DNA of 64,000 nt from Pseudomonas sp. B21-028 (GTDB lineage Bacteria > Pseudomonadota > Gammaproteobacteria > Pseudomonadales > Pseudomonadaceae): NCBI RefSeq assembly GCF_024749045.1, contig NZ_CP087184.1, positions 5,952,001-6,016,000 of the forward strand. The letters are read 5' to 3'. Made by a program: the position numbers and the translations under genes. Below, one piece after another: positions 7,773 to 24,171 of this stretch. The first letter of the stretch is position 1. Each line of letters begins with the position of its first letter. The notes under the pieces were generated by a model. That model was given only the letters and a program-made list of their open reading frames with translations. It was not told the origin of the DNA and did not search any database.

Positions 7773-7840
7773 GCTGATCTCCACGGCCGACTGCCGGCCT
7801 TCATGGTTGTGATTGTGCTCAGGCGCCGAAACAGCCATTT

Positions 7841-7885: not shown

Positions 7886-8055
7886 ACCGGCTCTGGCGCG
7901 TCGGGAACAGATTGGGCCATGTCGCCCATGGATAAGGTTCGCCCCCTGCGCGGCCCCACACTCGCCTCAACAGACAAACAACGTTTTCTGCCTTGCGTAG
8001 CACAACCGATTAGCCATATTTCGCCGGCCACACAGATGGCCATGAGGATACAACG

Positions 8056-9351
8056 ATGGACGTGACCACAACCCTGAGCCTGGGCGATCCACTGGAACCC
8101 GCACGCAAGGCCACCGTGCAGATGCTGCAGGAACGCGAGCGCACCTACTCGCTGCCGCAGCCATTCTATAGCGACGAGCGCCTGTTCGATATCGACATGC
8201 AGGAGATCTTCCATAAGGAATGGCTGATCGCCGGCATGACCTGCGAGATCCCGACCAAGGGCAACTACCTCACCCTGCAAGTGGGCAAGAACCCGATCAT
8301 CGTGATCCGCGGCGCCGACGGTGTGGTCCACGCATTCCATAACGTTTGCCGTCACCGCGGTTCGCGCCTGTGCACCAGCGAAAAGGGCAAGGTCGCCAAG
8401 CTGGTCTGCCATTACCACCAGTGGACCTACGAGCTGGACGGTCGCCTGCTGTTCGCCGGCACCGAAATGGGCGCCGACTTCGACATGAAGGAATACGGCC
8501 TCAAGCCGGTGAACGTGAAAACCGCCGGTGGCTACATCTTCATCAGCCTGGCGGAGAACCCGCCGGCCATCGATGACTTCCTGTCGACCCTGGCCCATTA
8601 CATGGAACCCTACGACATGGAAAACACCAAGGTGGCGGTGCAAACCACCTTGATGGAGAAGGCCAACTGGAAACTGGTGCTGGAAAACAACCGCGAGTGC
8701 TACCACTGCGGCGGCTCCCACCCCGAATTGCTCAAGACCCTGCTGGAATGGGACGACGTCACCGACCCGCGCGCCGACCAGGCGTTCAAGGACCACGTGG
8801 CCGCTTCCGCCGCCGCCTGGGACGCCGAGAAGATCCCTTACGCCCACGCCAGCTTCGGCCTGCGTAACCGCATCGTGCGCATGCCGCTGCTCAAGGGCAC
8901 CGTCTCGATGACCATGGACGGCAAGCAAGGCTGCGCCAAGCTGATGGGCCGCATCAAGAACCCGGACCTGGGCTCGATGCGTATCCTGCACCTGCCGCAC
9001 TCGTGGAACCACTGCATGGGCGACCACATCATCGTGTTCACCGTGTGGCCGATCAGCGCCCAGGAAACCATGGTCACCACCAAGTGGATCGTGCACAAGG
9101 ACGCGGTCGAAGGCGTGGACTACGACGTGGCGCGCATGCGCGAAGTCTGGGATGCCACCAACGACCAGGACCGTCGCCTGGCCGAAGAGAACCAGCGCGG
9201 CATCAACTCCACCGCCTACCAGCCGGGCCCATACTCCAAGACCTATGAGTTCGGCGTGGTGAACTTCGTGGACTGGTACAGCGGCCGCATGCTGAACAAC
9301 CTGGGGGCCGAGCCTGCGCCGTACCTCAAGGGCATCAAGGTCCAGGCCTAA
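8056..9351 (+). CDS. gbcA: Glycine betaine monooxygenase, Rieske oxygenase subunit
   Basis: A 431-residue Rieske non-haem iron oxygenase that removes one methyl group of glycine betaine as formaldehyde, giving dimethylglycine. The Rieske cluster ligands are Cys98-x-His100 and Cys118-x-x-His121. The mononuclear iron histidines are His217 and His222 in ECYHCGGSHPELL. GAGGA lies about 8 bases before the ATG. It is transcribed away from gbcB, its electron donor. The length and motifs match characterised Pseudomonas GbcA, and the surrounding dgc, sox and glyA genes complete the same pathway. Confidence 0.96.
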   Translation: MDVTTTLSLGDPLEPARKATVQMLQERERTYSLPQPFYSDERLFDIDMQEIFHKEWLIAGMTCEIPTKGNYLTLQVGKNPIIVIRGADGVVHAFHNVCRHRGSRLCTSEKGKVAKLVCHYHQWTYELDGRLLFAGTEMGADFDMKEYGLKPVNVKTAGGYIFISLAENPPAIDDFLSTLAHYMEPYDMENTKVAVQTTLMEKANWKLVLENNRECYHCGGSHPELLKTLLEWDDVTDPRADQAFKDHVAASAAAWDAEKIPYAHASFGLRNRIVRMPLLKGTVSMTMDGKQGCAKLMGRIKNPDLGSMRILHLPHSWNHCMGDHIIVFTVWPISAQETMVTTKWIVHKDAVEGVDYDVARMREVWDATNDQDRRLAEENQRGINSTAYQPGPYSKTYEFGVVNFVDWYSGRMLNNLGAEPAPYLKGIKVQA

Positions 9352-10703: not shown

Positions 10704-10730
10704 GTGGACGCTCCTTCGTAGTGCCCTGGG

Positions 10731-12599
10731 TTACAGGGTCTTCATGAATTCGATCAGGGCTCGTTTGTCGGTGTCCGACAGCTGCGTGCCATACAGATGA
10801 CCGCCGTTGTGGTTGCCTTCCAGGCGAGTGTCGTACTTGAAATCCGCCGACGCCTTCATCTGCGCGCCGCTGGTGATGAAACCAACTTTCTGCGGGTCGT
10901 AGATATCGGAGCCGGTGTAGAACACTTGCGGACGCTGTTCCGGCGGCAGCAACAGGTCCCACAGGGTTGGCACCGAGCCGTTGTGCAGGTACGGCGCACG
11001 CAACCAGATGCCGTCGGTCGGGGTGTTGCTGTAGCTCTGGGTCTTGCGGTAGGCGTTGAAGTCGAACGGCGGTTTCTTGAAGCCATGGAACGCTGTCACC
11101 AACCCGGTGGTGAAGGAGTTCAGGCGATGGGGATCGGTGCCCAACTGGTCGATATTGGTGGTGACCTGGCCTGTATCGGTGCGGCCGAAGTCGTGGCAAC
11201 CGGCACAGTTCTTCTCCCAGATCGGTTTGCCCTGGGCCACCTTCGCCTGGTCCAGGGCGAACGGCCAGGCCGGCGCCTTGTGCCCCAGCAACCAGTTGGT
11301 CACCCGGTTGAAGCTGGGCGGCAGCACCGATTCCGGTGTCGCGCCCACAGCCATGGCGGCGGCGTAGTTGCGCTCGTGGATTTTGTTGTTATTGCCGTCC
11401 CAATGCAGGTACATCGACTCGCGAGGTTTCTGGTTCCAGACTTGCGGCAGGTCCACGGTGCCGATGGTGGAGTCATCCGGGAAGCCGAACACCACCATTT
11501 TGGTCGGGTTGAAGGTGTCGGTCCGCCCGGGCCCCTGGGCCGGGCGCAGTTTCTGCCAGGCGTAGGCCTGTTTCTGCTTGAGCAGCGCGCTCTTGGCCAT
11601 CGGCATGATCAGGTAGCGGTTGTACAGCTTCTCGAAAAAGCCCAGTTGGAACTTGCCGTTGATCGCGGCCATGATCGCATCGGGGGTGAATTTCGGGTCG
11701 CTGGCGCAATCGTAGGCAAACCACTGGAAAGCCTGCAGTTGCAAGGTATTGGCCGGCGCGGTGGCGACCGGAACCGCTACGTCAGTGGCGTTGGCCCGGT
11801 AGGAGCCGGTGTGGCACAGGGCGCAGTTCGGCTCCACGGTGGGGTAGCCCAGTTGCCGTTTGGCCATGCCGATGGGCAGGTCCTTACCGTCTTCATAGAG
11901 GAAACCGAACACTTCGTAGCCACCGGGCTTGGGCATCTTTTCCGGGCACATCTGCGGCAGCACGGCGAACAGGTAGTAAGGAATCCGCGCCTCGATGCCG
12001 AGGCCGATCGCAGCGTACTTGTAATGGTCTTCGTCGGAAGCGAAGTCCGGCTGCGGTACCTCGCGGATCATCTGATACCAGGTCTGGTAACCGATGAAAC
12101 CCAGCACCAGTACCACGACCAGCGCGCCGGTCCTGAAACGCGGACTGTGCCAGTGCCGTCTCCAGCCCTCACGCCACTCCCGGCAACCGGTGCAGAGCAA
12201 GGCCAGCGGACGATTGGCAACCGTGCTGCCCAGGTACAGCAGCACGCCCAGTATCAGGAACATGCTCAGGTCGCCCATCAGCATCGGTACGAACAACGAG
12301 CCCTGGTTGTTGGTGTTGATCAGGTAGATCCAGAACACCACCGCCACCAGCCGCGAGAGCACACATAACCACGAATTCACCACGAAACGCGGCGCATTGA
12401 ACCCCGAGGGCATGTAGAACAGGCTGATTCCCACCAGCAACATGCCGGTGTTTTCCAGCCAGGGATCGGACAGCACGGGAGGTAGCCCGAGCATGGACGT
12501 CAGCAACGCCGGCGCGAACAGCGCCGGAATCGCGAAGAACATGTTCATGACAATCCCGACCCAGATGATGCGTTGGTACCAACGGATGTAAGTGTTCAT
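10731..12599 (-). CDS. Membrane-anchored dihaem cytochrome c protein
   Basis: A 622-residue protein. Four hydrophobic segments lie in the first 140 residues and another at about 160-180, followed by a large domain expected to face the periplasm. That domain has two haem c motifs, Cys259-Ala-Leu-Cys262-His and Cys465-Ala-Gly-Cys468-His. The later RAPYLHNGSVPTLWDLL resembles the corresponding stretch in RoxA/LatA-like and dihaem peroxidase-like cytochromes. Start at 12599 is preferred over 12605 from the spacing of AAGGA. It follows the GMC/hydrolase gene by 132 bp and precedes the phosphoesterase by 27 bp. It is a plausible electron acceptor or oxygen-using partner for the first gene. Confidence 0.8.
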   Translation of the reverse strand: MNTYIRWYQRIIWVGIVMNMFFAIPALFAPALLTSMLGLPPVLSDPWLENTGMLLVGISLFYMPSGFNAPRFVVNSWLCVLSRLVAVVFWIYLINTNNQGSLFVPMLMGDLSMFLILGVLLYLGSTVANRPLALLCTGCREWREGWRRHWHSPRFRTGALVVVLVLGFIGYQTWYQMIREVPQPDFASDEDHYKYAAIGLGIEARIPYYLFAVLPQMCPEKMPKPGGYEVFGFLYEDGKDLPIGMAKRQLGYPTVEPNCALCHTGSYRANATDVAVPVATAPANTLQLQAFQWFAYDCASDPKFTPDAIMAAINGKFQLGFFEKLYNRYLIMPMAKSALLKQKQAYAWQKLRPAQGPGRTDTFNPTKMVVFGFPDDSTIGTVDLPQVWNQKPRESMYLHWDGNNNKIHERNYAAAMAVGATPESVLPPSFNRVTNWLLGHKAPAWPFALDQAKVAQGKPIWEKNCAGCHDFGRTDTGQVTTNIDQLGTDPHRLNSFTTGLVTAFHGFKKPPFDFNAYRKTQSYSNTPTDGIWLRAPYLHNGSVPTLWDLLLPPEQRPQVFYTGSDIYDPQKVGFITSGAQMKASADFKYDTRLEGNHNGGHLYGTQLSDTDKRALIEFMKTL

Positions 12600-12653
12600 G
12601 GGCATCCTTTTTCCTTAAGCCTATCCACGAGGTGCAGCGCCCTGCCGATCGCT

Positions 12654-12717
12654 TTCGCGAGCAAGCCCGCCCCACATGGGCATGCGGTCTCCTGTGGGAG
12701 CGAGCCTGCTCGCGAAG
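12654..12717. repeat. REPIN, family A, inside the redox operon
   Basis: TCGCGAGCAAGCCCGC and TGTGGGAGCGAGCCTGCTCG in inverse order form a hairpin. They fill the gap between the GMC/hydrolase gene and the cytochrome gene. A palindrome here could lower expression of the two downstream genes or protect the upstream message. Confidence 0.85.
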
Positions 12718-12731
12718 AAGTCAACGCGCCG

Positions 12732-15700
12732 CTAGCCGAGCGCAGTCTTCTCCAGGTGCTCAAGGATGATCGGATACACATCCACCACCGCATCCTTGCC
12801 GAAGATGCAGTCGATATGACCGTAGCCCGGCACCTCATGACGGCTGAACAGTTGCGGACCGTGCATGTCGCACAGCCGCTCATAGGTCTTGAGGGTGCTT
12901 TGCGGCAAGTAGCACTGGTTGTCGGCACCGCTGATGAAGCAGATCGGCAATTTCAACCGATCGAAATGCGGCATGTAGACGTCGTTGCCCTTGAAGTCCA
13001 CCAGATGCCCCTTGCGCACGATCAGCGCCAGGTGCTCGAAGGTGTGCATGTTCGACTCGCCGAACAGTTCATGCAGGTTGTCGTGCAGGGTTTCGTTGAG
13101 GGTGTCGTGGCGGTACAGCGACGCATACATGAAAGTGATGCGATGGCAGACCGGGTTGGTGCAGTAGCCCTGGGCCTCGATCCGGGCGTAGCCGTTCAGC
13201 GCTTTGTCGTAGAGCTTGTTGAACCAGTTCTCCTTGGTGTCGGCGTAGGCGGTAAGAGACTTGATGCCGATGGCGTCGAGCATCCCCGGCAGGTGCAGGC
13301 CGGCCTTCAGACCGGTGGCCGTGGCGACCACCGTATCGGCGGCGATCTGCGAGCAAACCACCGAGCGCACGCCTTGCAAGCCCGCCAGCATCGACATGAA
13401 GAAAGTCGTCGCACCGTAGCAATGCACCACGCATTGCACGTCGCGGGCGAGGGTCGCCTGCTGGATCTGTTCGATAGCTGCCTTGAAGTCGTACTGGGCT
13501 ACCTGGTCGCCGTTCCACTCATGCTTGCTGGCGGGCAGCAGGATGCTCACCCGCAGGTCCAGCAGCCAGACGTCGTACTCGTGCTTGCACAGGTATTCCA
13601 GCAGGTTGGTGTGGATGGTATCGGTGGAGAAGATGTTCGAGCCCACGCCCAGCCCATGAACCAGCATCACCGGACCTTTGCTGCCCGCTTGATAGCGGGT
13701 CAGGCGCAGTTGGACGTTGTCTTCGGTCTCGAAGAAATGCACGGTCGGCGCCGGTGCGTCCAGGGGCCGCTTGATCCGCGGTGGCGCATCCGGGTTGAAG
13801 TAGATATCCCCGGCGAACACCCCGCCATAACTCTCCCACAGGATGCCGGCAAAGAACTTGCCGAACCGCGCCAGAGCCTCTACCCGCTCACGTTCATTAC
13901 GCGCGTTGAGCACCTTCATGGTGGTCATCTGTTTGGCAAAGTCCGCCGGCAGGATGTGCATCACACCCGAGCCGAGTACCGCGCCGGTCTTGTCCGGCCC
14001 ACGATAGAGCGTGACGTAGAGGGTGCTGGTGTCATGCCAGACGTTCAGCACGCCATTGTCCTCGGGCACGGTTTTGAAGGCGCTGAAGTAATAGTCGCTG
14101 CCGTCCTCGGCGGTCAGCTTCATGTCGTAGTTCATGTGCCGCACGCCCACCTGCTCTTGGTATTGTTCGAACAGGTTGAATACGCCGTTGCTGGCGACCA
14201 GCGGCTGCGGCGAGAGCAAGGGCGCATCCAAGGTGCCCACCAGCGTCGCGGCGTGTTCCGGCTCCTTGATCATGCGATTGAGGTCATCGGCGGTGATGGT
14301 CAGGGTGAACTCAATGGTCGAGTTGTCGGCTTTTCCGCGTTTGGCCGCCGCTTCGTAAAGCGTGAGGTCGGTGCCCTGGGCCTGGGTGAAGGCGCTGGAG
14401 AAATAGCCCTTCATGGTTTCGGTGAACTGTACGCCGAGGGTCGGCGCCGCCACCGACTTGCGCGGGGCCGAAGGCAGCGTGTAGTCGATCAGCCAGCCGC
14501 GATCGGCCGCCAGCAGGCCCATGTTGCGCTCGCTCACCGCCGAAATGGTCAGCAACGGATTGACCGCTAGGGAAGTCGGGATCACCGCACCATCGGCCAC
14601 GTACAGGCCGGGGTAGACATCCGTACCGCTGGCGCCACTGAACACCTGGCCCTTGTGGTTGACCACACCTTGCGTCGCGTCCTCGCCCATCACGCAACCG
14701 CCCAGGGGATGGACCGAGACGATGCTGTGTTTGAGCAGCTTGGTCCAGATCGGGTTCTCGACCCAGATCCCGCCCAGCGCCTTGGTGCTCTGATGCAAGC
14801 GTTCATTGCCGAGGGTGACGTTCTCCTGCTCACCGACACCGGGCCAGTCGATGCGCAACTGGTCTTTGTTGTCGAGCACCATGCGACCCTTGCCGTTGTC
14901 GTGGCTCATGATCAGGTAGGTCTGCATGTTGTGCAGCGCGCCGTGGTACGGGCCGCGCAAGAAGCTCTCGGCTTCCCGCCCCTTGTATTTGAGGCTGGCC
15001 CCGAAGCCGGTATCGGTGGGCACGCCAATCATCTCGGCGAACGCGGCCATGCTCGGCACCATCGGCCGGCCAAGCGCGCCGGGAATCGAACCTTCCTCGA
15101 TAACCATGCGGCTGCGCCAGTCACCCTCGGTGCGCATGTCGATGATCGAGGTGATGCACGGCCCCACCGGCTCCAGCTCCTTGGCCGAGTGGGCGCCGAA
15201 ACCGATGCCGTTGATGGTCTGGTCGCAGTTGTGGCCGAACCCGAGGATGTCGCCATTGCCGCTCATGTTCTCGCCCAGTTGATTGGACATCGCCAGGCCC
15301 TTGTCCCGGGAGCGCAGCATGATTTCGGTGGACCCCAGAGTGCCGGCCGACACCACCACGATGTCGGCGCGCACGAACAGGGTCGGTGCCGAGAACAGTT
15401 CGCGGCCGCTGTCCAGATACTGGAAGTGCACGATCCAACCGTTGCCGTCGCGCTCCAGGTGCCGCACCTCGGCCTGGCAGAAAATTTCCGCGCCATGGTT
15501 CCAGGCATCCGGCAGGTAATTCATCAGCGTGGTGTTCTTGGCCTTGTTGTTACAACCCGAGACGCAGTCGCCACAGCCGTTACAGGGCAATTGTTCGACG
15601 CCGACGTGGTTGAGGTTGTTGGGTAGCTTGTCGAACGTGACGTTGATCGGCGGCTTGTAGAAATGCGCGCCTTGCTTGAGGTAATCAGCCGATTTCTTGT

Positions 15701-16184
15701 GGGCGTCGAGCTTGGGCAGGTTCGGCGCCGAGGTCGGATAAGGGTTGGGCTTGAGCATCTCGCGGGCGCGCTCGTAGCCATCCTTGAGCAGCGTGTCACG
15801 GTGTTCACGCACCTCCAACGGCCAGCGTGGATCTTCGAATACACCCGGCTCCGGCTCCAGCGCGACGTTGGCGTTGATCAGCGAAGTGCCGCCCAGGCCA
15901 CAGCCCACCACCACGTTCTGCTGGGCATTGACGTGCAGGTCGAACATCCCGGTGCGCGAGCCGATGTGGCCGTCCGGGTCGTGCACTTGCAACTCCTCGG
16001 TGGCCGCCAGCATGGTGTTGGGGTATTCGCCGGGCTGCATTTCCCGGCCCCGCTCCAGCAGGCACACCTTGCGCCCGGCCCGGGACAGCCGTGAAGCGGC
16101 GATACCACCGCCGTAACCGGAGCCGATGACGATAACGTCGTAATGCTCCTTGATATCGCTGATGGGGGCCGAGATCCGTGTCAT
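12732..16184 (-). CDS. GMC-type oxidoreductase fused to an alpha/beta hydrolase
   Basis: An 1150-residue fusion. Residues about 15-580 are a GMC/cholesterol-oxidase-like flavoprotein: the FAD motif VIGSGYGGG (near residues 19-27), CGLGGTSLINAN, and SVHPLGGCVMG near the C-terminal side. Inside it, Cys201, Cys204, Cys207 and Cys211 form CxxCxxCxxxC, a pattern able to bind a 4Fe-4S cluster. A middle region of about 230 residues has no motif I recognise. Residues about 815-1150 are an alpha/beta hydrolase with the oxyanion VHGLGVG and candidate triad Cys922 (HCYGA), Asp1088 and His1123; cysteine replaces the usual serine. No signal peptide. The start codon is ATG at 16184 with AGAGGA 8 bases upstream; TTG two codons earlier is less likely. 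First gene of the operon. Possibly oxidises and then cleaves an alcohol or lactone; the substrate is unknown. Confidence 0.85.
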   Translation of the reverse strand: MTRISAPISDIKEHYDVIVIGSGYGGGIAASRLSRAGRKVCLLERGREMQPGEYPNTMLAATEELQVHDPDGHIGSRTGMFDLHVNAQQNVVVGCGLGGTSLINANVALEPEPGVFEDPRWPLEVREHRDTLLKDGYERAREMLKPNPYPTSAPNLPKLDAHKKSADYLKQGAHFYKPPINVTFDKLPNNLNHVGVEQLPCNGCGDCVSGCNNKAKNTTLMNYLPDAWNHGAEIFCQAEVRHLERDGNGWIVHFQYLDSGRELFSAPTLFVRADIVVVSAGTLGSTEIMLRSRDKGLAMSNQLGENMSGNGDILGFGHNCDQTINGIGFGAHSAKELEPVGPCITSIIDMRTEGDWRSRMVIEEGSIPGALGRPMVPSMAAFAEMIGVPTDTGFGASLKYKGREAESFLRGPYHGALHNMQTYLIMSHDNGKGRMVLDNKDQLRIDWPGVGEQENVTLGNERLHQSTKALGGIWVENPIWTKLLKHSIVSVHPLGGCVMGEDATQGVVNHKGQVFSGASGTDVYPGLYVADGAVIPTSLAVNPLLTISAVSERNMGLLAADRGWLIDYTLPSAPRKSVAAPTLGVQFTETMKGYFSSAFTQAQGTDLTLYEAAAKRGKADNSTIEFTLTITADDLNRMIKEPEHAATLVGTLDAPLLSPQPLVASNGVFNLFEQYQEQVGVRHMNYDMKLTAEDGSDYYFSAFKTVPEDNGVLNVWHDTSTLYVTLYRGPDKTGAVLGSGVMHILPADFAKQMTTMKVLNARNERERVEALARFGKFFAGILWESYGGVFAGDIYFNPDAPPRIKRPLDAPAPTVHFFETEDNVQLRLTRYQAGSKGPVMLVHGLGVGSNIFSTDTIHTNLLEYLCKHEYDVWLLDLRVSILLPASKHEWNGDQVAQYDFKAAIEQIQQATLARDVQCVVHCYGATTFFMSMLAGLQGVRSVVCSQIAADTVVATATGLKAGLHLPGMLDAIGIKSLTAYADTKENWFNKLYDKALNGYARIEAQGYCTNPVCHRITFMYASLYRHDTLNETLHDNLHELFGESNMHTFEHLALIVRKGHLVDFKGNDVYMPHFDRLKLPICFISGADNQCYLPQSTLKTYERLCDMHGPQLFSRHEVPGYGHIDCIFGKDAVVDVYPIILEHLEKTALG

Positions 16185-16463
16185 GTCCAAGTCCTCTCAG
16201 GCAGAAAGGGCAACTCTGCGGTTGCCTGTAAATCGAAGGCGTACCAACGCCTGGCCACTGTCCCGTAGGGGGACGCGCGGCAGTCAACGGTGTTGCGGGG
16301 GAAACGAGGTGCGGGTGAACGCTATTGACGCGCACGCTGGTTGACGGCGCGACGACGGATGCGTCTGGGCAACAACATGGGTGGCATCGGGGTGCAATTC
16401 ACCGAGGAGGGGAGGTACGTGTGAGGGTGTCGGCTATCCATCCTGTGCTCTCCCTGAACCGGA

Positions 16464-16472
16464 TGTGGATAA
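16464..16472 (-). promoter_or_regulatory. Perfect DnaA box
   Basis: TGTGGATAA, the reverse of the consensus TTATCCACA. It is the leftmost of ten perfect matches in 5.6 kb, and lies upstream of the GMC/hydrolase gene. Confidence 0.6.
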
Positions 16473-16609
16473 AAACGCTGATGTCCTTGTGGGTTGGAGT
16501 GAAGACACACGACAGGTATGCGTCAAGGCAGTTCCTTAGAACTGTATGAAATTTGATCTATAGCGTTTCAGACTATGCCCGCCGGGGGCCGCAGCCTTTC
16601 GCAAACAAG

Positions 16610-17133
16610 TTATCCACATGACCACCCACAGCTAATGGGGACAAGTACATTCGGGATAGGCGACTCTGAGGAAAAAATCAGGGAAAACCGTGATTTACGT
16701 ACGTCGAAGGTTTTTCTGTCATATTGGTTATTTTTTGATCAGAAGCCGGAGAAGCTTGATTTACATGGCTTACAGCGGTAAGCGAACACCTTATCCACAG
16801 AAGCGCCAACAGTGTTTGGGGGTAAAGTTGACGACTCTGTGGAAAACCGTGAGCAGGCCCCTTAAATCAAGGTTTTTTGGGGAGTTTTCCAATCGGACAG
16901 GCGAATTGATCATTTACTGATCAATCGAGTGAAAGGCCCGCTTCGCGTGGCTTGTAGAGGACAGCGAACATCTTATCCACAAAAGCGCCAACAAATATTG
17001 GGGGCAAAATGTGCATCATCACTGTCCGCGCCGATCGGAAAAAGCCAATAAAAACCGTAAGTTGGGCTGATCAATTTTTGATCTAAGCCCTGGAGAGCTT
17101 GATTGGTAAGGCGTATGGCAAGGAACGAACAGG
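16610..17133. repeat. Three tandem degenerate units, each opening with a DnaA box
   Basis: Units start at 16610, 16791 and 16973 and are 181, 182 and 161 bp long. Each begins TTATCCACA and ends with CGAACA plus two bases. Units 2 and 3 share GCGCCAACA then TTGGGGG, all three have AAAACCGT (or the same with one extra A), and each has an AT-rich stretch with TGATCA or TTGATC before the end. A near box TGTGGAAAA occurs at 16838. The 1.04 kb gap between 16185 and 17225 holds nothing else I recognise: no gene, and the operon promoter is presumably at its left end. The layout recalls a DnaA-binding locus, but dnaA, dnaN and rpmH are not nearby. Confidence 0.75.
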
Positions 17134-17168
17134 TTATCCACAGGTGGGTATACAGCAACTGTGGGTAA
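17134..17168. promoter_or_regulatory. Inverted DnaA box pair, left of acetyltransferase gene
   Basis: TTATCCACAG and the inverse CTGTGGGTAA (one mismatch to consensus) face each other over 15 bp. A near copy of the whole arrangement lies on the other side of the acetyltransferase gene at 17831-17862. Confidence 0.6.
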
Positions 17169-17225
17169 GCACCGGTCCCGGATGAAGAACCCGCTCGCTC
17201 TCTACGGGTTTCCATCCAGCAGCGG

Positions 17226-17792
17226 TCAGGACCGATACATCAGATACGCCTCTCCCGTTACCCGAATCATTGGGTGCGGGACAATCTGGCAGGTTTTAAC
17301 GATGCCAAAGCCATGGCGTTCATAGAAACGCCGGGCGCCGGTGTTCGCTGCGTAGTCGATCAGGCTCAGGCCCTTGAGCTCCAATCGATCGGCCCGCTGT
17401 TGTGCCAGCTCGAGAAAGCGCACGCCCAGCCCCTTGTTGCGCCAACCTTCATGCAGGGCAAGACTTGATATATAGAGCGTATCGGGAACTTCCATATCAG
17501 CGTAAGGCGCAAGCACCGGATCGGTGACCGGAGTCGCCAGCGGATCATGACGCATCACGTAGCAGTGCATCATCCCGATGACCCGACCCTCAGCCTCTGC
17601 AATGACGCAGTTCTGGTAGGAGAAATCAACATCCTCACGTGCGTAGCGAGCCGCGCCCACCTCGACGAGGTCCTGTCCAGGCTCCGCCAGTTGGCTCCAG
17701 ATGTAATCCGAAGCACCTTCGGAGGATATCTGGAACAAGCGAGCGATCTCGGGCGCATCCGCGGGTAAAGCCGGACGAAATTCAATAGTCAT
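17226..17792 (-). CDS. GNAT family N-acetyltransferase
   Basis: A 188-residue protein starting MTIEFRPALPADAPEIARLF. The GNAT acetyl-CoA site is visible as ISSLALHEGWRNKGLGVRFLELA (the RNKGLG loop), and the C-terminal ANTGARRFYERHGFGIV is the usual final strand-helix. The target amine is unknown. The TTG 15 bases upstream is less likely than the ATG at 17792. It is a single gene lying between two near-identical inverted DnaA box pairs, and points in the same direction as the GMC operon beyond the box array and the etf genes on the other side, without clear operon membership. Confidence 0.85.
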   Translation of the reverse strand: MTIEFRPALPADAPEIARLFQISSEGASDYIWSQLAEPGQDLVEVGAARYAREDVDFSYQNCVIAEAEGRVIGMMHCYVMRHDPLATPVTDPVLAPYADMEVPDTLYISSLALHEGWRNKGLGVRFLELAQQRADRLELKGLSLIDYAANTGARRFYERHGFGIVKTCQIVPHPMIRVTGEAYLMYRS

Positions 17793-17830
17793 GAAAGGGG
17801 ATTCCAATAGCTGTCAGACGCCTTGGGAGG

Positions 17831-17862
17831 TTATCCACAGGTGTATGCAGAGTTGTGGGTAA
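17831..17862. promoter_or_regulatory. Inverted DnaA box pair, right of acetyltransferase gene
   Basis: TTATCCACAGGTG opens the site and TGTGGGTAA closes it in inverse orientation. The order and spacing repeat those at 17134-17168, so the two probably derive from one duplication event around the acetyltransferase gene. Confidence 0.6.
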
Positions 17863-17872
17863 ACCCGAGCCT

Positions 17873-17964
17873 CTGTGGGAGCGAGCCTGCTCGCGATAGC
17901 CGGATATCAAACAACATTGTTGTCGCTGACACGCCGCTATCGCGAGCAGGCTCGCTCCCACATG
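17873..17964. repeat. REPIN, family A
   Basis: TGTGGGAGCGAGCCTGCTCG and its inverse are separated by about 45 bp. It follows the end of the etfB-type gene and probably stabilises or ends the dimethylglycine operon transcript. Confidence 0.9.
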
Positions 17965-17985
17965 GGGTTTTGCGGGGATGTGGGG

Positions 17986-18756
17986 TTAACGAACCACCCC
18001 TTCCTCCACCAACAACTTGAGAATCGCTTCGGCACCGGCCTCCGGGCTCACACCCTTGAGCACCTGCCCGCCTCCGCCACTGGCCTTGGCCGTGGCGGCC
18101 TTCATGCGATCGGCGCCGCTCTTGGCCTTGATCACTTTCAGGCGCTTGGGGCGTGGCTTGGCTGGTTGCAGCGTTGCCGCCGCGAGCAAGTCGTCGTCGA
18201 TCACTTCGACTTCTTCGGCATGCAGGGCGCCACGTCGGGCCGGGCCGTAGGCACTTTGGCGAGGTTTTGGCGCCGCATTATCCACAGTGGCGAGAAACGG
18301 CAGGCGCACCTTCAGCCGCCGCCGTTGACCGCGGGGCAAGGCTTGCAACACCAGGGCCACGCCGTTTTCGATGGATTCCACCTGGGCCAACCCCACCACC
18401 AGCGGCCAGCCCAGGTTTTCCGCCAGTAGGAACGGCAGCATTCCCGAGCCTTCGCCGGTTTCCGCTTGGCTACCGGTGAGCACCACCTGGGGTCCCGCGT
18501 CGCGCAGGTAATCGGTCAGGGCCGGGAGCGCGTCGGCCCCCGCCGGGTTTTCCAGCACGCGAAGCTCGTCCAGGCCCATGCCCAGGTAAGCGCGCAGGGC
18601 CGGTTCGGCCACGTCGCCGGCATGCAGTACTTGCAGGTCGCTTCCGGCCAGTTGCAAGCCCAGCTCCACGGCCCGGGCGTCCTGATCGGCACGCCTTGGC
18701 CGACCGGAGGTAGGGTGGGCACCGATGGAGACGAGGCTGATCACTTGAGTCGTCAT
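17986..18756 (-). CDS. Electron transfer flavoprotein beta subunit (dimethylglycine operon)
   Basis: A 256-residue protein of the ETF alpha/beta superfamily beginning MTTQVISLVSIGAHPTSGRPRR. The stretch VVLTGSQAETGEGSGMLPFLLAENLGWPLV matches the AMP-binding region of ETF beta subunits. With the alpha subunit it should carry electrons from DgcA/DgcB during dimethylglycine demethylation toward the quinone pool; that partnership is inferred from the operon and from the same order in P. aeruginosa. It is last in the minus-strand operon, 15 bp after etfA, with AAGGA before the ATG. A perfect DnaA box (18278-18286) lies inside the gene. Confidence 0.88.
   Translation of the reverse strand: MTTQVISLVSIGAHPTSGRPRRADQDARAVELGLQLAGSDLQVLHAGDVAEPALRAYLGMGLDELRVLENPAGADALPALTDYLRDAGPQVVLTGSQAETGEGSGMLPFLLAENLGWPLVVGLAQVESIENGVALVLQALPRGQRRRLKVRLPFLATVDNAAPKPRQSAYGPARRGALHAEEVEVIDDDLLAAATLQPAKPRPKRLKVIKAKSGADRMKAATAKASGGGGQVLKGVSPEAGAEAILKLLVEEGVVR
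18278..18286 (+). promoter_or_regulatory. Perfect DnaA box inside the etf beta gene
   Basis: TTATCCACA within coding sequence. One of three perfect boxes inside the etf genes; see the cluster finding. Confidence 0.5.
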
Positions 18757-18771
18757 GGTTGAATCCTTAGC

Positions 18772-19992
18772 TTAAGCCGCATCGCGTTTGGCTTCGTTGC
18801 GGTAAGCCTCTACGGCCGCGATCAGCGCCTGGAGAATCGCCGCGCTGTCGCCGATCACCGACAGGTCCGCCCGCTTGATCATGTCGCAACCCGGATCGAG
18901 GTTGATTGCCACCACCTTGTCGCAGGCACCGATGCCTTGCAGGTGCTGGATCGCCCCGGAGATCCCCACGGCCACATAGACCCGTGCGGTGACCCAGGTA
19001 CCACTGGCGCCGACCTGACGGTCCCGGGCCATGAAACCATCGTCCACCGCCACCCGCGAAGCGCCTTCGGTGGCGCCCAGGGCCGCAGCGGTCTGGTGGA
19101 ACAGCGCCCAGTCCTTGACCCCGTTGCCGCCCGAGAAAATGAATTCGGCTTCGGCCATCGGGATCGCGCCCGGGTCCACCGCCACCGCGCCCATATCCTC
19201 GATGCGCGACAAGCTGCGGGCCACGCTTGTGGATAACTCCACTGGCAACGCCTCGTGTCGGGTTTCGCTGACCGGTTCGGCACATTCGGCGGCTGCCAGG
19301 ATCAACCGGGCCAAAGGCCGGGCCAAGTCTTGCAGGCCCGCGCCGGCGCGACCGATGCACTCCTCGCCCTTGACCTGCCAGACGCGGGTAGCCGGGCGTT
19401 CGCCCAGGGCCGCGGCGAAGCGCCGGCCCAGCTCGGCGCCACCGCTACGGCTGTCGGGCAGCAACCAATGCCGCGGGTTGAACTGGTTATCCACAGCTCG
19501 CAGGCCTTGCACGCGCTGTTCCGGTGCGTAACCGCTGAATTCCTCGCCGTCCAGCACCAACAGGCGGTCGACGCCGGCCGCGGCGAACGCGCTTTCCTTA
19601 TGCTCGCCGAAGACCACTGCCAGCACCGCACCGTCCGTGCCGGCCAACTGATGAGCCAGGCCCAGCAGATCGCGGTCGTGACTGCTGAGGCGTCCGCCCA
19701 CCATGTCCGGCACCACACAGATGTGGAACGCCGGTTGTGGCACTTGATGCAACGGCAGCTGTACTTCAGCCGCGGCGCTGCGCTTGGCCGTGCCGCCCTG
19801 CTGGGCGCCGCTGCGGTCGATACGCTTGATACCGTTGGGGCCGATGAAGCCGACGCCGTGGACATTCTTGCGAATGATGCCGTTGGGGCCCATCCAGCTA
19901 TGCTGGACCGGCTGCATGGCCGCGTGCAGCGGGTGCAGGCGGTTGCGGGCGATCCACTCGGCGCGAGGGTCGCGGCGGATGATGTCGCTCAT
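18772..19992 (-). CDS. Electron transfer flavoprotein alpha subunit (dimethylglycine operon)
   Basis: A 406-residue ETF alpha-type protein. Residues 90-400 carry the fold, and the C-terminal FAD domain shows GASRVAVDDGFMARDRQVGASG, VYVAVGISGAIQHLQGI, AINLDPGCDMIKRADLSVIGD, the standard alpha-subunit signature. The N-terminal 90 residues, containing a run of MGPNGIIRKNVHGVGFIGPNG, are an extension compared with the common 310-residue ETF alpha. Its ATG overlaps the dgcB stop by one base (TAATG), implying coupling. It should transfer electrons from the dimethylglycine demethylase. Two perfect DnaA boxes lie inside it. Confidence 0.88.
   Translation of the reverse strand: MSDIIRRDPRAEWIARNRLHPLHAAMQPVQHSWMGPNGIIRKNVHGVGFIGPNGIKRIDRSGAQQGGTAKRSAAAEVQLPLHQVPQPAFHICVVPDMVGGRLSSHDRDLLGLAHQLAGTDGAVLAVVFGEHKESAFAAAGVDRLLVLDGEEFSGYAPEQRVQGLRAVDNQFNPRHWLLPDSRSGGAELGRRFAAALGERPATRVWQVKGEECIGRAGAGLQDLARPLARLILAAAECAEPVSETRHEALPVELSTSVARSLSRIEDMGAVAVDPGAIPMAEAEFIFSGGNGVKDWALFHQTAAALGATEGASRVAVDDGFMARDRQVGASGTWVTARVYVAVGISGAIQHLQGIGACDKVVAINLDPGCDMIKRADLSVIGDSAAILQALIAAVEAYRNEAKRDAA
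19228..19236 (-). promoter_or_regulatory. Perfect DnaA box inside the etf alpha gene
   Basis: TGTGGATAA, the consensus box read on the minus strand. Confidence 0.5.
19487..19495 (+). promoter_or_regulatory. Perfect DnaA box inside the etf alpha gene
   Basis: TTATCCACA on the plus strand, 250 bp from the inverse box at 19228. Confidence 0.5.
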
Positions 19993-21941
19993 TAATGCAC
20001 CTCCGCAGGTTCACGTTTGGCCGGGGCCGCAGACTTGCTCGGCGCCGCCTCTTCGAGCAGGGCATCGGCCACCAGTTCGGCGATGTCCTTGATCATCGGC
20101 CGAGGCTCGACCACACCTTCAAGCATCGCGGTGCATTGTGGACAACCCACGGCCACCAGCTCGGCACCGGTTTCGCGGATGTCTTCCATGCGCATGTCCG
20201 GGATCCGCTGCTTGCCCGGAATGTCGGTAATCGGCGCACCGCCGCCACCGCCGCAGCAACGCGAACGGAAACCGGAACGCTGCATTTCCTTGACCTCGAT
20301 GCCCAGGGCGCGCAGCACCTGACGCGGCGCCTCGTACTCGCCGTTGTAGCGACCCAGGTAGCACGGGTCGTGATACGTCACGCTGTCACCCTTGTGCTGG
20401 CCGAGGTTGAGGGCGCCGGCGTCGATGATTTCCGCCAGGTAGGTGCTGTGGTGCTGCACCAGGTAGTTGCCATCGAAGGCGCCGTATTCGTTTTTCAGCA
20501 CGTGGAAACTGTGAGGGTCGCAGGTCACGATGCGGTTGAAGCTGTATTTGCCCAGGGTCTGGATATTGCGCTTGGCCAACAGCTGGAACGTCGCTTCGTC
20601 ACCGAGGCGCCGGGCCACGTCGCCGCTGTCGCGTTCTTCGAGACCGAGCACGGCGAAATCGATATTCGCGGCCTTCAGCACTTTGACGAAGGCGCGCAAG
20701 GTGCGCTGGTTGCGCATGTCGAAGGCACCGTCGCCGACCCAGAACAGCACGTCGGTGGATTTCTTCTCGCTGAGCAGGTTCAGGTTCAGGTCCGCCGCCC
20801 AGTTCATCCGCCCGCCCGGGGCGAAGCCGCCAGGGTTATCGGTGGCGATGAGATTTTCCAGCACCTCGGCACCCTTGTTCGGCGTGGCGCCTTTTTCCAG
20901 GGTCAGGTGACGACGCATGTCGACGATGGCATCGACGTGCTCGATCATCATCGGACATTCCTCGACGCAGGCACGGCAAGTGGTGCAGGACCACAGCGTC
21001 TCGGCGTCCACCAGGCCGTTGACGATCGGCTGGTGCGGATTGCCGCCATGTTCGCCCACCGGTTTGCCCGGATACGGGCTGCCGGCGAACTTCGCATCGG
21101 TGCCGCCGGCCAGGCCGACGACCATGTCCTGGATGAGCTTCTTCGGGTTCAGCGGCTGGCCGGCGGCGAACGCCGGGCAGGCCGCTTCACACTTACCGCA
21201 CTGCACGCAGGCGTCGAAGCCGAGCAACTGGTTCCAGGTGAAATCCTTGGGTTTCTCCACACCCAACGGTGCGCTCGGATCGTTCAGGTCCAGCGGTTTC
21301 AGACCGGTAGAACGACCGCCGCCAAAGCGCTCGGCACGACGGTGCCAGGCCAGGTGCAGGGCACCGGCGAAGGCGTGCTTCATCGGTCCGCCCCAGGTCA
21401 TGCCGAACAACAGCTCCGACACGCCCCACAACACGCCGACGCCCAGGATCGCCGCCAACAGCCAGCCACCGAAGTTTTCCGGGAGAATCCCGGCCACCGG
21501 CAGGGTCACCAGGAAGAACGAAGCCGAGAACGCCAACAGGCTTTTCGGCAGGCGCATCCACGGGCCTTTCGACAGGCGCGCCGGCGGATTGCGTCGACGC
21601 AGGTAGACAAAGATCGCGCCGACGAACATCACCGCCGACATCAACAGCAGTGCATAGCCGAGGAAACGGTTATGCAGGCCGAAACCGTGCACCAGGATCG
21701 CCAGCACCAGCGATGCCACCGCACCACCGGCCGTGGCAACGTGGGTGTTGGCAATGTATTTGTCCCGCGCCACCACGTGGTGCAAATCCACCATGTAGCG
21801 CTTGGGCATGGCAAAGAGGCCGCCGATCAGGTTGACCTTGGACGGTCGCCCCCGGCGCCACATGTTCACCCGCCGCAAGGCGCCGAGGACCGCGAGGCCC
21901 AAAGCGGCGAACAGCAGGATGGGAAGAAGGGTGTTCAGCAT
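19992..21941 (-). CDS. dgcB: Dimethylglycine demethylase subunit DgcB (iron-sulfur electron transfer protein)
   Basis: A 649-residue membrane iron-sulfur protein needed with DgcA for conversion of dimethylglycine to sarcosine. About six hydrophobic segments occupy the first 210 residues. They are followed by two 4Fe-4S motifs, CVQCGKCEAACP and CTTCRACVEECP, and two cysteine-rich CCG-type domains, the last ending SRCCGGGGGAPI and AVGCPQC. The layout is that of HdrD/GlpC-like reductases. The start at 21941 (MLNTLLPILLFAALG) is used rather than the upstream 21977 because it places a membrane segment at the N-terminus. It overlaps etfA by one base and follows dgcA. Confidence 0.92.
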   Translation of the reverse strand: MLNTLLPILLFAALGLAVLGALRRVNMWRRGRPSKVNLIGGLFAMPKRYMVDLHHVVARDKYIANTHVATAGGAVASLVLAILVHGFGLHNRFLGYALLLMSAVMFVGAIFVYLRRRNPPARLSKGPWMRLPKSLLAFSASFFLVTLPVAGILPENFGGWLLAAILGVGVLWGVSELLFGMTWGGPMKHAFAGALHLAWHRRAERFGGGRSTGLKPLDLNDPSAPLGVEKPKDFTWNQLLGFDACVQCGKCEAACPAFAAGQPLNPKKLIQDMVVGLAGGTDAKFAGSPYPGKPVGEHGGNPHQPIVNGLVDAETLWSCTTCRACVEECPMMIEHVDAIVDMRRHLTLEKGATPNKGAEVLENLIATDNPGGFAPGGRMNWAADLNLNLLSEKKSTDVLFWVGDGAFDMRNQRTLRAFVKVLKAANIDFAVLGLEERDSGDVARRLGDEATFQLLAKRNIQTLGKYSFNRIVTCDPHSFHVLKNEYGAFDGNYLVQHHSTYLAEIIDAGALNLGQHKGDSVTYHDPCYLGRYNGEYEAPRQVLRALGIEVKEMQRSGFRSRCCGGGGGAPITDIPGKQRIPDMRMEDIRETGAELVAVGCPQCTAMLEGVVEPRPMIKDIAELVADALLEEAAPSKSAAPAKREPAEVH

Positions 21942-22002
21942 GGTGAAGCTCCCAAAGACCTCAGGTCTTGCAGGCACAGAAACCTGGATGTCTTGCTCGA
22001 CT

Positions 22003-22105
22003 CCTGTGGGAGCAAGGCTGGCCCGCGATGGGATTGACTCGGTCAGTCAGATGCTCCGTATCGCTGCTATCGCGGGCAAGCCTTGCTCCCACAGGGTTAT
22101 CCACA
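22003..22105. repeat. REPIN, family A, with an adjoining perfect DnaA box
   Basis: TGTGGGAGCAAGGCTGGCCC and the inverse GGGCAAGCCTTGCTCCCACA occupy 22003-22095 between dgcA and dgcB. TTATCCACA follows at 22097-22105. The palindrome lies inside an operon and may tune the dgcA to dgcB ratio. Confidence 0.8.
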
Positions 22106-22110
22106 AGCCG

Positions 22111-24171
22111 TTAGAAATCCTTGCACAGCCGCAGGGCGTCGTAGATCGCGGCGTGGGTATTACGCTGCGCTACACAGTCACCGATGCGGAACAGCAGGTA
22201 GCCATCGCCGCTCTGCTCCAGGCACGGTTGAGGCTTGATCGCGAACAGGGCTTCGACGTCGATCTGGCCCTTGTTGCGCGAACCTTCCTTGAGGGCGTAG
22301 TAGATTTCCTCGTCCGGACGCACGCCGTTCTCCACCACCACCTGGTCCACCACGCGTTCTTCCTTGGCACCGGTGTATTCGTTCTCCAGCACCGCCACCA
22401 GCTTGTCGCCTTCGCGGTAGACCTTCTCCAGCATCATGTCCCCGGTCATGATCACTTCTTTCGGGTACATGCTGCGGTAGTAGGTTGGGAACGACGTCCC
22501 GCCAATGGCCACGCCCGGTTTGATATCGTCGGTGACGATCTCGACCTGGCTGCCCTTGTCGGCGAGGAAGTCGGCCACCGACATGCCGGTGAACTCGCAG
22601 ATGGTGTCGTAGACCAGCACGTTCTTGCCCGGTGCGACCTTGCCGTCAAGCACGTCCCAGCTGCTGACCACCAGCCCTTCGGCGGCGCCCCAGTGCTCGT
22701 TCTGCTCCAGGAACGGATGACCGCCCACCGCCAGCACCACCACATCCGGACGCAAGTCCATGATGGTTGCCGCGTCGGCCGCCACGCCCAGGCGCAGGTC
22801 GACTTTCAGTCGCGCCAGCTCCAGTTGGAACCAACGGGTAATACCGGCGATCTGGTCCCGTTGCGGGGCTTTCGAAGCGGTGGTGATCTGCCCACCGATG
22901 AATTCCTTCTTCTCGAACAGGGTCACGTCGTGCCCACGTTCGGCCGCCACGCGAGCGGCTTCCATCCCGGCCGGGCCGGCACCGACCACCACCACCTTGC
23001 GTTTCGGCCCGGTGGATTTCTCGATGATGTGCGGCACGCCCATGTATTCACGGGAGGTCGCGGCGTTCTGGATGCACAGTACGTCCAGGCCCTGATATTG
23101 ACGGTCGATGCAATAGTTGGCGCCGACGCACTGCTTGATCTGGTCGACCTGGCCCATCTTGATCTTGGCGATCAGGTGCGGGTCGGCGATGTGGGCGCGG
23201 GTCATGCCGACCATGTCTACGTAACCGCCCTCCAGGATCCGCGTGGCCTGGTTCGGGTCCTTGATGTTCTGCGCGTGCAGCACCGGGACCTTGACCACTT
23301 CCTTGATACCGGCGGCCAGGTGCAGGAACGGCTCCGGTGGATAACTCATGTTCGGGATGACGTTGGCCAGGGTGTTGTGGGTGTCGCAACCCGAACCCAC
23401 GACGCCGATGAAATCCAGCATGCCCGTGTCGTCGTAGTACTTGGCGATCTGTTTCATGTCCTCATGGGACAGACCGTCCGGGTGGAACTCGTCACCGCAG
23501 ATACGCATGCCGACGCAGAAGTCGTCGCCCACTTCGGCGCGCACGGCCTTGAGCACTTCCAGGCCGAACTTCATCCGGCCTTCGAAGCTGCCGCCCCATT
23601 CGTCGGTACGCTTGTTGACCCGTGGGCTCCAGAACTGGTCGATCATGTGCTGGTGCACGGCGGACAGCTCGACGCCGTCCAGGCCACCGGCCTTGGCCCG
23701 GCGCGCAGCCTGGGCGTAGTTGCCGATCACCCGCCAGATTTCTTCCGGCTCGATGGTCTTGCACGTGGCACGGTGCACCGGCTCACGGACACCGGACGGC
23801 GACATCAGGGTCGGCCAGTTGAAGCCGTCCCAGCGCGAGCGACGGCCCATGTGGGTAATCTGGATCATGATCTTGGCGCCATGCTTGTGCATGGCGTCGG
23901 CCAGGTTCTGGAAATGCGGGATGATGCGGTCGGTGGACAGGTTCACCGAGCTCCACCATTCCTGCGGGCTGTCGATGGCAACCACCGACGAACCACCGCA
24001 GATCGCCAGGCCGATGCCGCCCTTGGCCTTCTCTTCGTAATACTTCACGTACCGGTCGGTGGTCATCCCGCCGTCAGTGGCATAGACCTCGGCGTGAGCG
24101 GTGCTGAGCACGCGGTTGCGGATGGTCAGTTTGCCGATCTGGATCGGCTGGAACATTGCTTCAAAAGCCAT
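22111..24171 (-). CDS. dgcA: Dimethylglycine demethylase subunit DgcA
   Basis: A 686-residue two-domain flavoprotein. Residues 1-350 are an Old-Yellow-Enzyme-like FMN barrel (MFQPIQIGKLTIRNRVLSTAH; DGVELSAVHQHMIDQFWSPRVNKRTDEWGG). A cysteine group follows (CVGANYCIDRQY...LCIQNAATSRE) where family members bind a 4Fe-4S cluster, then an FAD/NAD domain opened by VVVVGAGPAGMEAARVAAERG. Related enzymes include trimethylamine dehydrogenase and 2,4-dienoyl-CoA reductase. It oxidises dimethylglycine to sarcosine and formaldehyde. GAGGA lies 8 bases before the ATG. It sits upstream of dgcB in the same operon. Confidence 0.95.
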   Translation of the reverse strand: MAFEAMFQPIQIGKLTIRNRVLSTAHAEVYATDGGMTTDRYVKYYEEKAKGGIGLAICGGSSVVAIDSPQEWWSSVNLSTDRIIPHFQNLADAMHKHGAKIMIQITHMGRRSRWDGFNWPTLMSPSGVREPVHRATCKTIEPEEIWRVIGNYAQAARRAKAGGLDGVELSAVHQHMIDQFWSPRVNKRTDEWGGSFEGRMKFGLEVLKAVRAEVGDDFCVGMRICGDEFHPDGLSHEDMKQIAKYYDDTGMLDFIGVVGSGCDTHNTLANVIPNMSYPPEPFLHLAAGIKEVVKVPVLHAQNIKDPNQATRILEGGYVDMVGMTRAHIADPHLIAKIKMGQVDQIKQCVGANYCIDRQYQGLDVLCIQNAATSREYMGVPHIIEKSTGPKRKVVVVGAGPAGMEAARVAAERGHDVTLFEKKEFIGGQITTASKAPQRDQIAGITRWFQLELARLKVDLRLGVAADAATIMDLRPDVVVLAVGGHPFLEQNEHWGAAEGLVVSSWDVLDGKVAPGKNVLVYDTICEFTGMSVADFLADKGSQVEIVTDDIKPGVAIGGTSFPTYYRSMYPKEVIMTGDMMLEKVYREGDKLVAVLENEYTGAKEERVVDQVVVENGVRPDEEIYYALKEGSRNKGQIDVEALFAIKPQPCLEQSGDGYLLFRIGDCVAQRNTHAAIYDALRLCKDF

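Follow-up and report, generated by a model that had tools for sequence, protein, structure and literature searches.

Once-per-cycle control of chromosome replication is less well understood in bacteria lacking SeqA than in Escherichia coli. In this study, a DnaA-box array located in a 64,000-nucleotide stretch of the Pseudomonas sp. B21-028 chromosome (hereafter the window; positions 5952001–6016000 of the genome, a single contig of 6493931 bases) was characterized and compared with the closest described systems, the E. coli loci DARS1, DARS2 and datA. Coordinates of features are given as window positions.

In E. coli K-12, the DARS1 core as read here consists of TAATACACA, 3 bp, TTATCCACA, 5 bp and an inverted TTATCCACT, and the DARS2 core of TTCTTCACA, 3 bp, CTATCCACA, 5 bp and an inverted TTATTCACC. 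Both readings agree with the double boxes tabulated in PMC11317965, and the primers reported for replacement of DARS2 boxes I–III flank the DARS2 core stretch (PMC4585315). PMC8682772 places boxes I and II in opposing orientation, with a head-to-head action that frees adenosine diphosphate (ADP), and DARS2 is reported to be stimulated by IHF and Fis (PMC4245941). In PMC11317965, datA is listed at a distance of ~467 kb from the oriC peak, and E. coli DnaA is stated to prefer tandem sites 2–3 bp apart in vivo. Moreover, enrichment of DnaA boxes near the E. coli origin is described in PMC12371093, the main text of which is without the word Pseudomonas. DARS and Pseudomonas are both mentioned, separately, in PMC10218098, and twelve boxes are reported for the P. 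putida dnaA promoter (PMC8203912). In the open-access literature, screened by titles and abstract openings (most subscription papers and all preprints fall outside it), no DARS, datA or similar array was described for Pseudomonas.

Considering box density, partner spacings of 17 and 3 bp, DARS-core geometry, conservation, helical phasing, persistence through neighbour changes, three further module loci and the presence of an Hda homologue, we lean towards reading the array as a dedicated non-coding chromosomal DnaA-control locus of DARS-like kind. Such a locus would probably help to set when the chromosome starts replicating. Its action would most likely be reactivation of DnaA, as at DARS, and less likely titration or inactivation, as at datA. 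The label DARS-like, not DARS member, was chosen because the near-consensus middle box of both E. coli cores is not found in the array and because the activity is a prediction.

DnaA-Box Density and Architecture of the Array

The exact box TTATCCACA occurs ten times on both strands of the window, every copy being located within 16464–22105. A recount thus agrees with the original prediction, which had also put the chance expectation below one; 100 dinucleotide-preserving shuffles of the window contained 0.14 boxes on average and never more than 2. The additional near boxes reported at 16838, 17160 and 17854 are real. In the complete genome, 122 exact boxes were counted versus 12 copies of a reversed control pattern, an approximately tenfold excess. 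A genome scan for comparable densities ranked the array locus as the top 5.64-kb stretch of the 6.49-Mb genome: no other stretch of this length holds ten boxes, and the runner-up, beside oriC, holds nine. The refuting outcome named in the original prediction, comparable box density at many sites, was thus not observed. Likewise, the top 1 kb for exact boxes lies at the array locus (five boxes; four at the dnaA end of the record). The second-densest cluster, nine exact boxes in 5 kb at 6485869–6490881, adjoins oriC within the last 8 kb of the record.

Base 1 of the record was taken as the dnaA start. The open reading frame (ORF) at 1–1521, which we take to be dnaA, encodes a 506-aa product with one full-length match per genome in 28 relatives; this product also matches an Hda/DnaA-homologue model with a score under the cut-off. 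The array is located 526 kb from dnaA, corresponding to 8.1 percent of the genome. Exact boxes crowd near dnaA, 40 of the 122 lying within 250 kb, and counts per 250-kb bin of dnaA distance were 40, 9, 25, 11, 13, 5, 10, 7, 1, 1, 0, 0 and 0, so that the whole-genome scan of these 122 boxes found none beyond 2.5 Mb. Origin-proximal enrichment as described for E. coli in PMC12371093 was thus seen in this genome too, with the exact 9-mer alone.

Four of the ten boxes belong to imperfect repeats, with spacings of 181, 182 and 161 bp, within the intergenic array 16599–17168, an arrangement overlooked by the original prediction. Each repeat, termed a module, is laid out as NNGCGAACA, 2 bp, TTATCCACA, 3 bp, a weak box, 5 bp and an inverted box (Table 1). 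The upstream half-site ends in AACA and the weak site downstream of the perfect box in ACA, and the stretch from TTATCCACA through the inverted box measures 35 bp in every module. The weak middle sites are degenerate (CCACCCACA, GCGCCAACA, GCGCCAACA and GGGTATACA). DARS1 and DARS2 share this order of box, 3 bp, box, 5 bp and inverted box over 35 bp with boxes I and II opposed; thus, the III–3 bp–II–5 bp–I spacing and the polarity of the DARS cores are both present in the Pseudomonas modules. Furthermore, modules and DARS are alike in being intergenic and in occurring at more than one locus per genome. They differ in that the Pseudomonas array contains four phased tandem modules with an extra half-site 2 bp upstream, and in their neighbours, since DARS1 lies by uvrB and DARS2 by mutH, whereas the array has other neighbours. 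A half-site ending in AACA 2 bp before TTATCCACA is also found among the double boxes from chromatin immunoprecipitation sequencing listed in PMC11317965, for example upstream of nrdD; those are single pairs, mostly upstream of genes, whereas the array comprises four repeats with a third and an inverted site.

A secondary or relic replication origin, as suggested among other options by the original prediction, would accord with a box density resembling that beside oriC and with the low guanine-cytosine (GC) content of the arrays (mean 47.8 percent). This idea was rejected and is regarded as very improbable: the GC skew rises locally at 10–18 kb and then returns without a sustained switch, no replication gene was found among the eight ORFs scanned around the array, and dnaA is 526 kb away. 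Likeness of the array to the strain's own oriC was also dismissed, since a search of the genome with the array DNA at E 0.001 hit one place only and gave no second match, oriC included.

Module Spacing

In order to avoid presupposing any spacing, the box-likeness of 9-mers was scored at 36 spacings in both orientations around 651 exact boxes from 101 related loci. Inverted partners (at least 6/9 matches) peaked at spacing 17 with 58 percent, followed by 12 percent at spacing 27, and direct partners peaked at spacing 3 with 14 percent, followed by 4 percent at spacing 16. The modules of these loci are homologous, and boxes outside the array in the strain's own genome therefore represent the better test. 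Among 118 such boxes, eight have an inverted partner at spacing 17 (three boxes at the next-best spacing) and six a direct partner at spacing 3 (four boxes at the next-best spacing). None of 2000 shuffles of the downstream letters reached eight inverted partners at any spacing, and six of them reached six direct partners. Three of the eight spacing-17 boxes belong to two of the further module loci described below (C and D), two are neighbours at genome positions 5924853 and 5924966, and the rest are without a clear middle site. Overall, the inverted spacing of 17 bp is firm, the inner split into 3 and 5 bp less so. The module finder behind the module counts and intervals reported below scores geometry, so these counts lean towards it, which does not apply to the spacing scans.

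Conservation and Helical Phasing

A search with the non-coding stretch 16380–17230 gave DNA matches in 107 of the 149 genus genomes sampled (own genome included); conservation in related strains was among the checks proposed in the original prediction. Similar modules were found in the family sample in 74 of 119 genomes, representing 15 of the 19 genera, and in an order sample of 145 genomes four matching genomes lay outside the family. A near-identical module occurs in 80 records among the matches listed (of at least 119 stretches), all named Pseudomonas. Loci were fetched from 100 of the 107 matching genomes (G023, G024, G055, G071, G103, G126 and G144 were left out), giving a set of 101 loci (L031–L060, L085–L096 and L103–L161; L077–L084 were omitted as their genomes were already represented, and G138 is included twice, as L059 and L085). 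Four modules were counted in 88 of these loci, three in nine, five in two and two in two. The set comprises 98 distinct arrays, of which 87 have exactly four modules and 71 entered the tree. Divergent arrays are missed by the DNA search: seven of the 42 unmatched genomes contain two or three modules beside etfB (L220–L225, L227), and two further ones (L178, L179; 30 of the 42 looked at) have looser modules beside etfA.

In genomes with array and dnaA on one contig, the two are 328–648 kb apart in 25 of 26 cases, the exception being G028 with 1116 kb; the array lies to the left of dnaA in 22 and to the right in four. This stable distance is weak evidence because gene order near origins is conserved anyway.

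The 87 distinct four-module arrays provide 261 intervals between modules, with lengths of 128, 138–139, 148–150, 159–162, 169–173, 181–183 and 192–193 bp and, once, 217 bp. Accordingly, intervals differ by whole helical turns in 260 of 261 cases, the 217-bp interval being out of phase. The step is ~10.7 bp, the resultant being 0.94 in the weighted analysis (at 10.6 and 10.8) and 0.78 when each distinct length is counted once (at 10.8 and 11.0). On the etfB tree of 71 loci, the three intervals underwent a minimum of 5, 7 and 11 changes of length class, or 23 and more in all. By our own arithmetic, 22 of 23 in-class changes would arise by chance about once per million, a figure that serves only as a guide since the classes were drawn after the lengths were known and cover slightly more than half of the range 127–194. 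Slippage in units of 10–11 bp could be a non-functional cause of the whole-turn spacing. A further element, TTTTGATC (a T-run with GATC), precedes modules 2, 3 and 4 in 40, 34 and 18 of the 87 arrays, located 54 bp from the box wherever present, except for two cases at 65 bp, one turn more. Occurrence of GATC in the arrays is approximately twofold over shuffles (395 versus 203).

A conserved, repetitive intergenic stretch might in principle encode a conserved non-coding RNA, or belong to a plain family of repeats, with the boxes being accidental. We consider this highly doubtful. Within the module, conservation is highest in the columns of the DnaA box and of the terminal ACA of its partner sites, and whole-turn spacing is a property of bound DNA, the possible slippage notwithstanding. 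The RNA variant was rejected on the basis of Rfam, which gave no match in the array; its three hits, each scoring under the gathering threshold, fall on a hairpin at 17867–17968.

Persistence of the Array beside Different Genes

Another option of the original prediction was control of the betaine catabolism genes by DnaA. Transcriptional regulation of these neighbours, or of the GMC-type oxidoreductase gene, is conceivable: DnaA is a known transcription factor elsewhere (PMC8203912), the array lies ~410 bp upstream of the GMC-type gene in the window, and the nearest left neighbour is a GMC-type gene pointing away from the array in 29 of the 98 distinct arrays. A survey of these 98 arrays, in which only five genes were looked for, set this proposal back, and we now regard it as quite unlikely. 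In 65 of 98, the nearest left neighbour is gbcA pointing at the array, and in 53 both recognised neighbours (gbcA with etfB or the GNAT gene) converge on it with their 3' ends. Among 20 relatives for which 16 kb were fetched, 13 lack the GMC-type gene and 13 the GNAT gene, yet the array boxes are kept in all 20; they are also present in L085, which has no etf or dgc gene. Moreover, no sigma-70-like promoter was found in 16190–17230, where chance alone would give only 0.9. For the window itself, with the array upstream of the GMC-type gene, such regulation is conceivable.

In 57 of the 67 loci that have gbcA as left neighbour and no GMC-type gene, the end of gbcA and the first module are no more than 255 bp apart. 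Of the left neighbours, gbcA looks ancestral. In the window, the block 9459–16190, comprising the GMC-type oxidoreductase gene and a di-haem cytochrome peroxidase-like gene, separates gbcA from the array. This block may be an insertion, as gbcA adjoins the array directly in most relatives.

Comparison with DARS and datA

Of the options in the original prediction, a datA or DARS counterpart fits best, given the DARS-core spacing, polarity and conservation. Several observations weigh against a DARS-like locus. The outer box of the Pseudomonas module is perfect and the middle one degenerate, whereas the E. coli cores have their best consensus match in the middle box. Of the eight spacing-17 boxes outside the array, just three, those belonging to loci C and D, are followed by a middle site with terminal ACA, and at loose thresholds the inner split 3+5 scores 7 versus 6 for both 1+7 and 5+3. 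The distance from oriC (8.1 percent of the genome) is nearer to that of datA (~10) than to those of DARS2 (21) or DARS1 (33), and in the window the GMC-type gene does have the array upstream of it. DARS2 needs IHF sites, which appear weak in the arrays: in the 87 homologous arrays, WATCAANNNNTTR with at most one mismatch was found 81 times versus 43 in shuffles (exact, 5 versus 1.6), and the Fis pattern 278 versus 108 times. IHF or Fis as a partner of the array was considered but not adopted, given a modest enrichment among homologous arrays.

Some of these points would suit a titration sink or a datA-like inactivator, in which the replication fork doubles the array early and DnaA is soaked up, or its bound adenosine triphosphate (ATP) hydrolysed, preventing re-initiation. 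The array has the highest box density of the genome, boxes crowd towards dnaA as titration models would like (PMC12371093), its position at 526 kb is near that of E. coli datA (~467 kb, PMC11317965), and no SeqA match was found in the genome. As a cluster of DnaA boxes outside oriC at a similar distance, the array resembles datA, which also holds a 3-bp double box. They differ in that datA adjoins tRNA genes, whereas a tRNA scan of the 64-kb window found none, and in that no 35-bp inverted geometry was seen in the datA stretch read. A plain sink needs neither this fixed geometry nor helical phasing, and the IHF sites required at datA appear weak in the array; this explanation, the main rival, appears rather unlikely to us.

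For the favoured DARS-like locus, the following course of events is proposed. DnaA would bind each module head to tail on the half-site, the perfect box and the weak box, facing one DnaA molecule on the inverted box. Modules on the same face of the helix would then fold into one nucleoprotein complex, in which ADP would be loosened from the facing molecules, as at the E. coli DARS cores, and the DnaA set free would be recharged with ATP, so that active DnaA would be raised before initiation at oriC. Further nearby boxes, including those in etfA and etfB, might concentrate DnaA at the locus. An Hda homologue scored over the cut-off in the genome, and a family search for SeqA gave no match; Hda-driven inactivation of DnaA is thus likely, and a reactivation step would be useful. 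The whole-turn rule predicts that the modules act jointly as one folded complex. If DARS activity holds true, the mechanism would extend beyond enteric bacteria. A conserved DnaA-box array with DARS spacing represents a definite, deletable site for studying replication control without SeqA.

Further Module Loci

A sequence-only model built from 58 modules was run over the strain's own genome. It recovered the four modules of the window at 35.8 to 50.1 bits, followed by three further places, designated B, C and D (Table 1). Locus B includes the weakest accepted match (E 0.006); matches below it were not counted. Middle sites at these loci are mostly nearer to consensus than those of the array, e.g., CGCTCCACA. 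In 54 chosen genomes, among the matches listed, C-like places lie 833–924 kb left of dnaA in at least nine complete genomes, D-like places 751–864 kb right in at least seven and B-like places 670–702 kb right in at least three, each on the same strand. A YigZ-like gene likewise neighbours modules in L229 and L235, as well as in L244 from another genus; in L232, the neighbours are the livF and dehydrogenase genes.

Based on these loci, it is tentatively proposed that Pseudomonas may control DnaA via a family of 35-bp DARS-type modules, comprising the phased four-module array plus three or more further loci, which are spread over both arms and no farther than 0.9 Mb from the origin. Here, the phased modules would form one cooperative switch operating without SeqA, and genomes without the array (e.g., G059) would have built multi-module arrays of their own.

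The neighbouring boxes at genome positions 5924853 and 5924966 (L291) are 113 bp apart, and both have an inverted partner at spacing 17. They possibly represent a fifth module locus, which received no good score from the 58-module model. In G059, which is without a match to the array of the window, five near-identical modules are located 225–227 bp apart (L234, G059:C4:202052-202992); this tandem array apparently arose independently. Five modules are also present in L233 (G119).

Other Boxes and Neighbouring Genes

Table 1. Coordinates of DnaA-box features and genes. Positions refer to the window, except for loci B, C and D (genome positions).
Feature	Position	Strand	Remarks
Four-module DnaA-box array, intergenic	16599..17168	+	Repeats, DNA matches in genus, module consensus, spacing classes
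Module 1	16599..16644	+	Half-site 16599-16607, perfect 16610-16618, weak 16622-16630, inverted 16636-16644
Module 2	16780..16825	+	Half-site 16780-16788, perfect 16791-16799, weak 16803-16811, inverted 16817-16825
Module 3	16962..17007	+	Half-site 16962-16970, perfect 16973-16981, weak 16985-16993, inverted 16999-17007
Module 4	17123..17168	+	Half-site 17123-17131, perfect 17134-17142, weak 17146-17154, inverted TTACCCACA 17160-17168
TTTTTTGATC element before module 2	16731..16740	+	GATC 54 bp before box; 54-bp distance fixed in relatives
Like of TTTTTTGATC element before module 4	17075-17083		From sequence
GATC alone before module 3	16919-16922		From sequence
Perfect box	16464..16472	-	On side of GMC-type gene; present in most relatives whose match covers that part of the query
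Box TTTTCCACA	16838..16846	-	Between modules 2 and 3; kept as TCTGTGGAAAA in the 54 arrays whose interval is 182
Perfect box and inverted TTACCCACA	17831..17862	+	14 bp apart, unlike the 17-bp module spacing; start of GNAT gene
Perfect box in etfB	18278..18286	+	Exact in 62/114 etfB sequences
Perfect box in etfA	19228..19236	-	Exact in 51/91 etfA sequences
Perfect box in etfA	19487..19495	+	259 bp from other etfA box; exact in 67/91 etfA sequences
Perfect box	22097..22105	+	Immediately past 3' end of dgcA-like gene
gbcB	6675-7784		Window copy; gbcA and gbcB copies 94-95 percent identical to L087 genes named over cut-off
gbcA	8050..9348	+	94 percent identical to L087 copy, which passes NF058607 cut-off
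GMC-type oxidoreductase gene	12732..16190	-	5' end towards array; family hits under curated cut-offs
etfB	17986..18756	-	NF051844 over cut-off; neighbour, outside proposed mechanism
etfA	18772..19992	-	NF051845 over cut-off; carries two boxes
Locus B (L197)	657.9-658.2 kb		Between livF-like and short-chain dehydrogenase genes; weakest B match E 0.006
Locus C (L198)	5624.9 kb		Between 306-aa gene without family match and flavoprotein family TIGR03862 gene
Locus D (L199)	767.7-768.0 kb		Beside YigZ-like gene (score under cut-off)

As the original prediction had noted, three exact boxes lie within the etf genes, one in etfB and two in etfA, both gene calls being over the curated cut-off. Exact conservation of these boxes (Table 1) compares with medians of 0.29 and 0.23 for the most frequent 9-mer at each position. 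A rare TTA codon in an etf box is kept in 52 of 91 sequences. Synonymous-site conservation was given little weight because, by major-codon fraction, the TTA codon ranks no higher than the 22nd percentile among comparable codons.

To the right of etfA, the genes at 19992–21977 and 22111–24171 are presumably dgcB and dgcA, respectively, their best families scoring under the cut-off. No terminator-like site was found in 16190–17230, the chance expectation being less than one. Between the GNAT and etfB genes, a long inverted repeat with 36-nt arms (89 percent complementary) is located at 17874–17962, which we take to be of the REP kind known from Pseudomonas.

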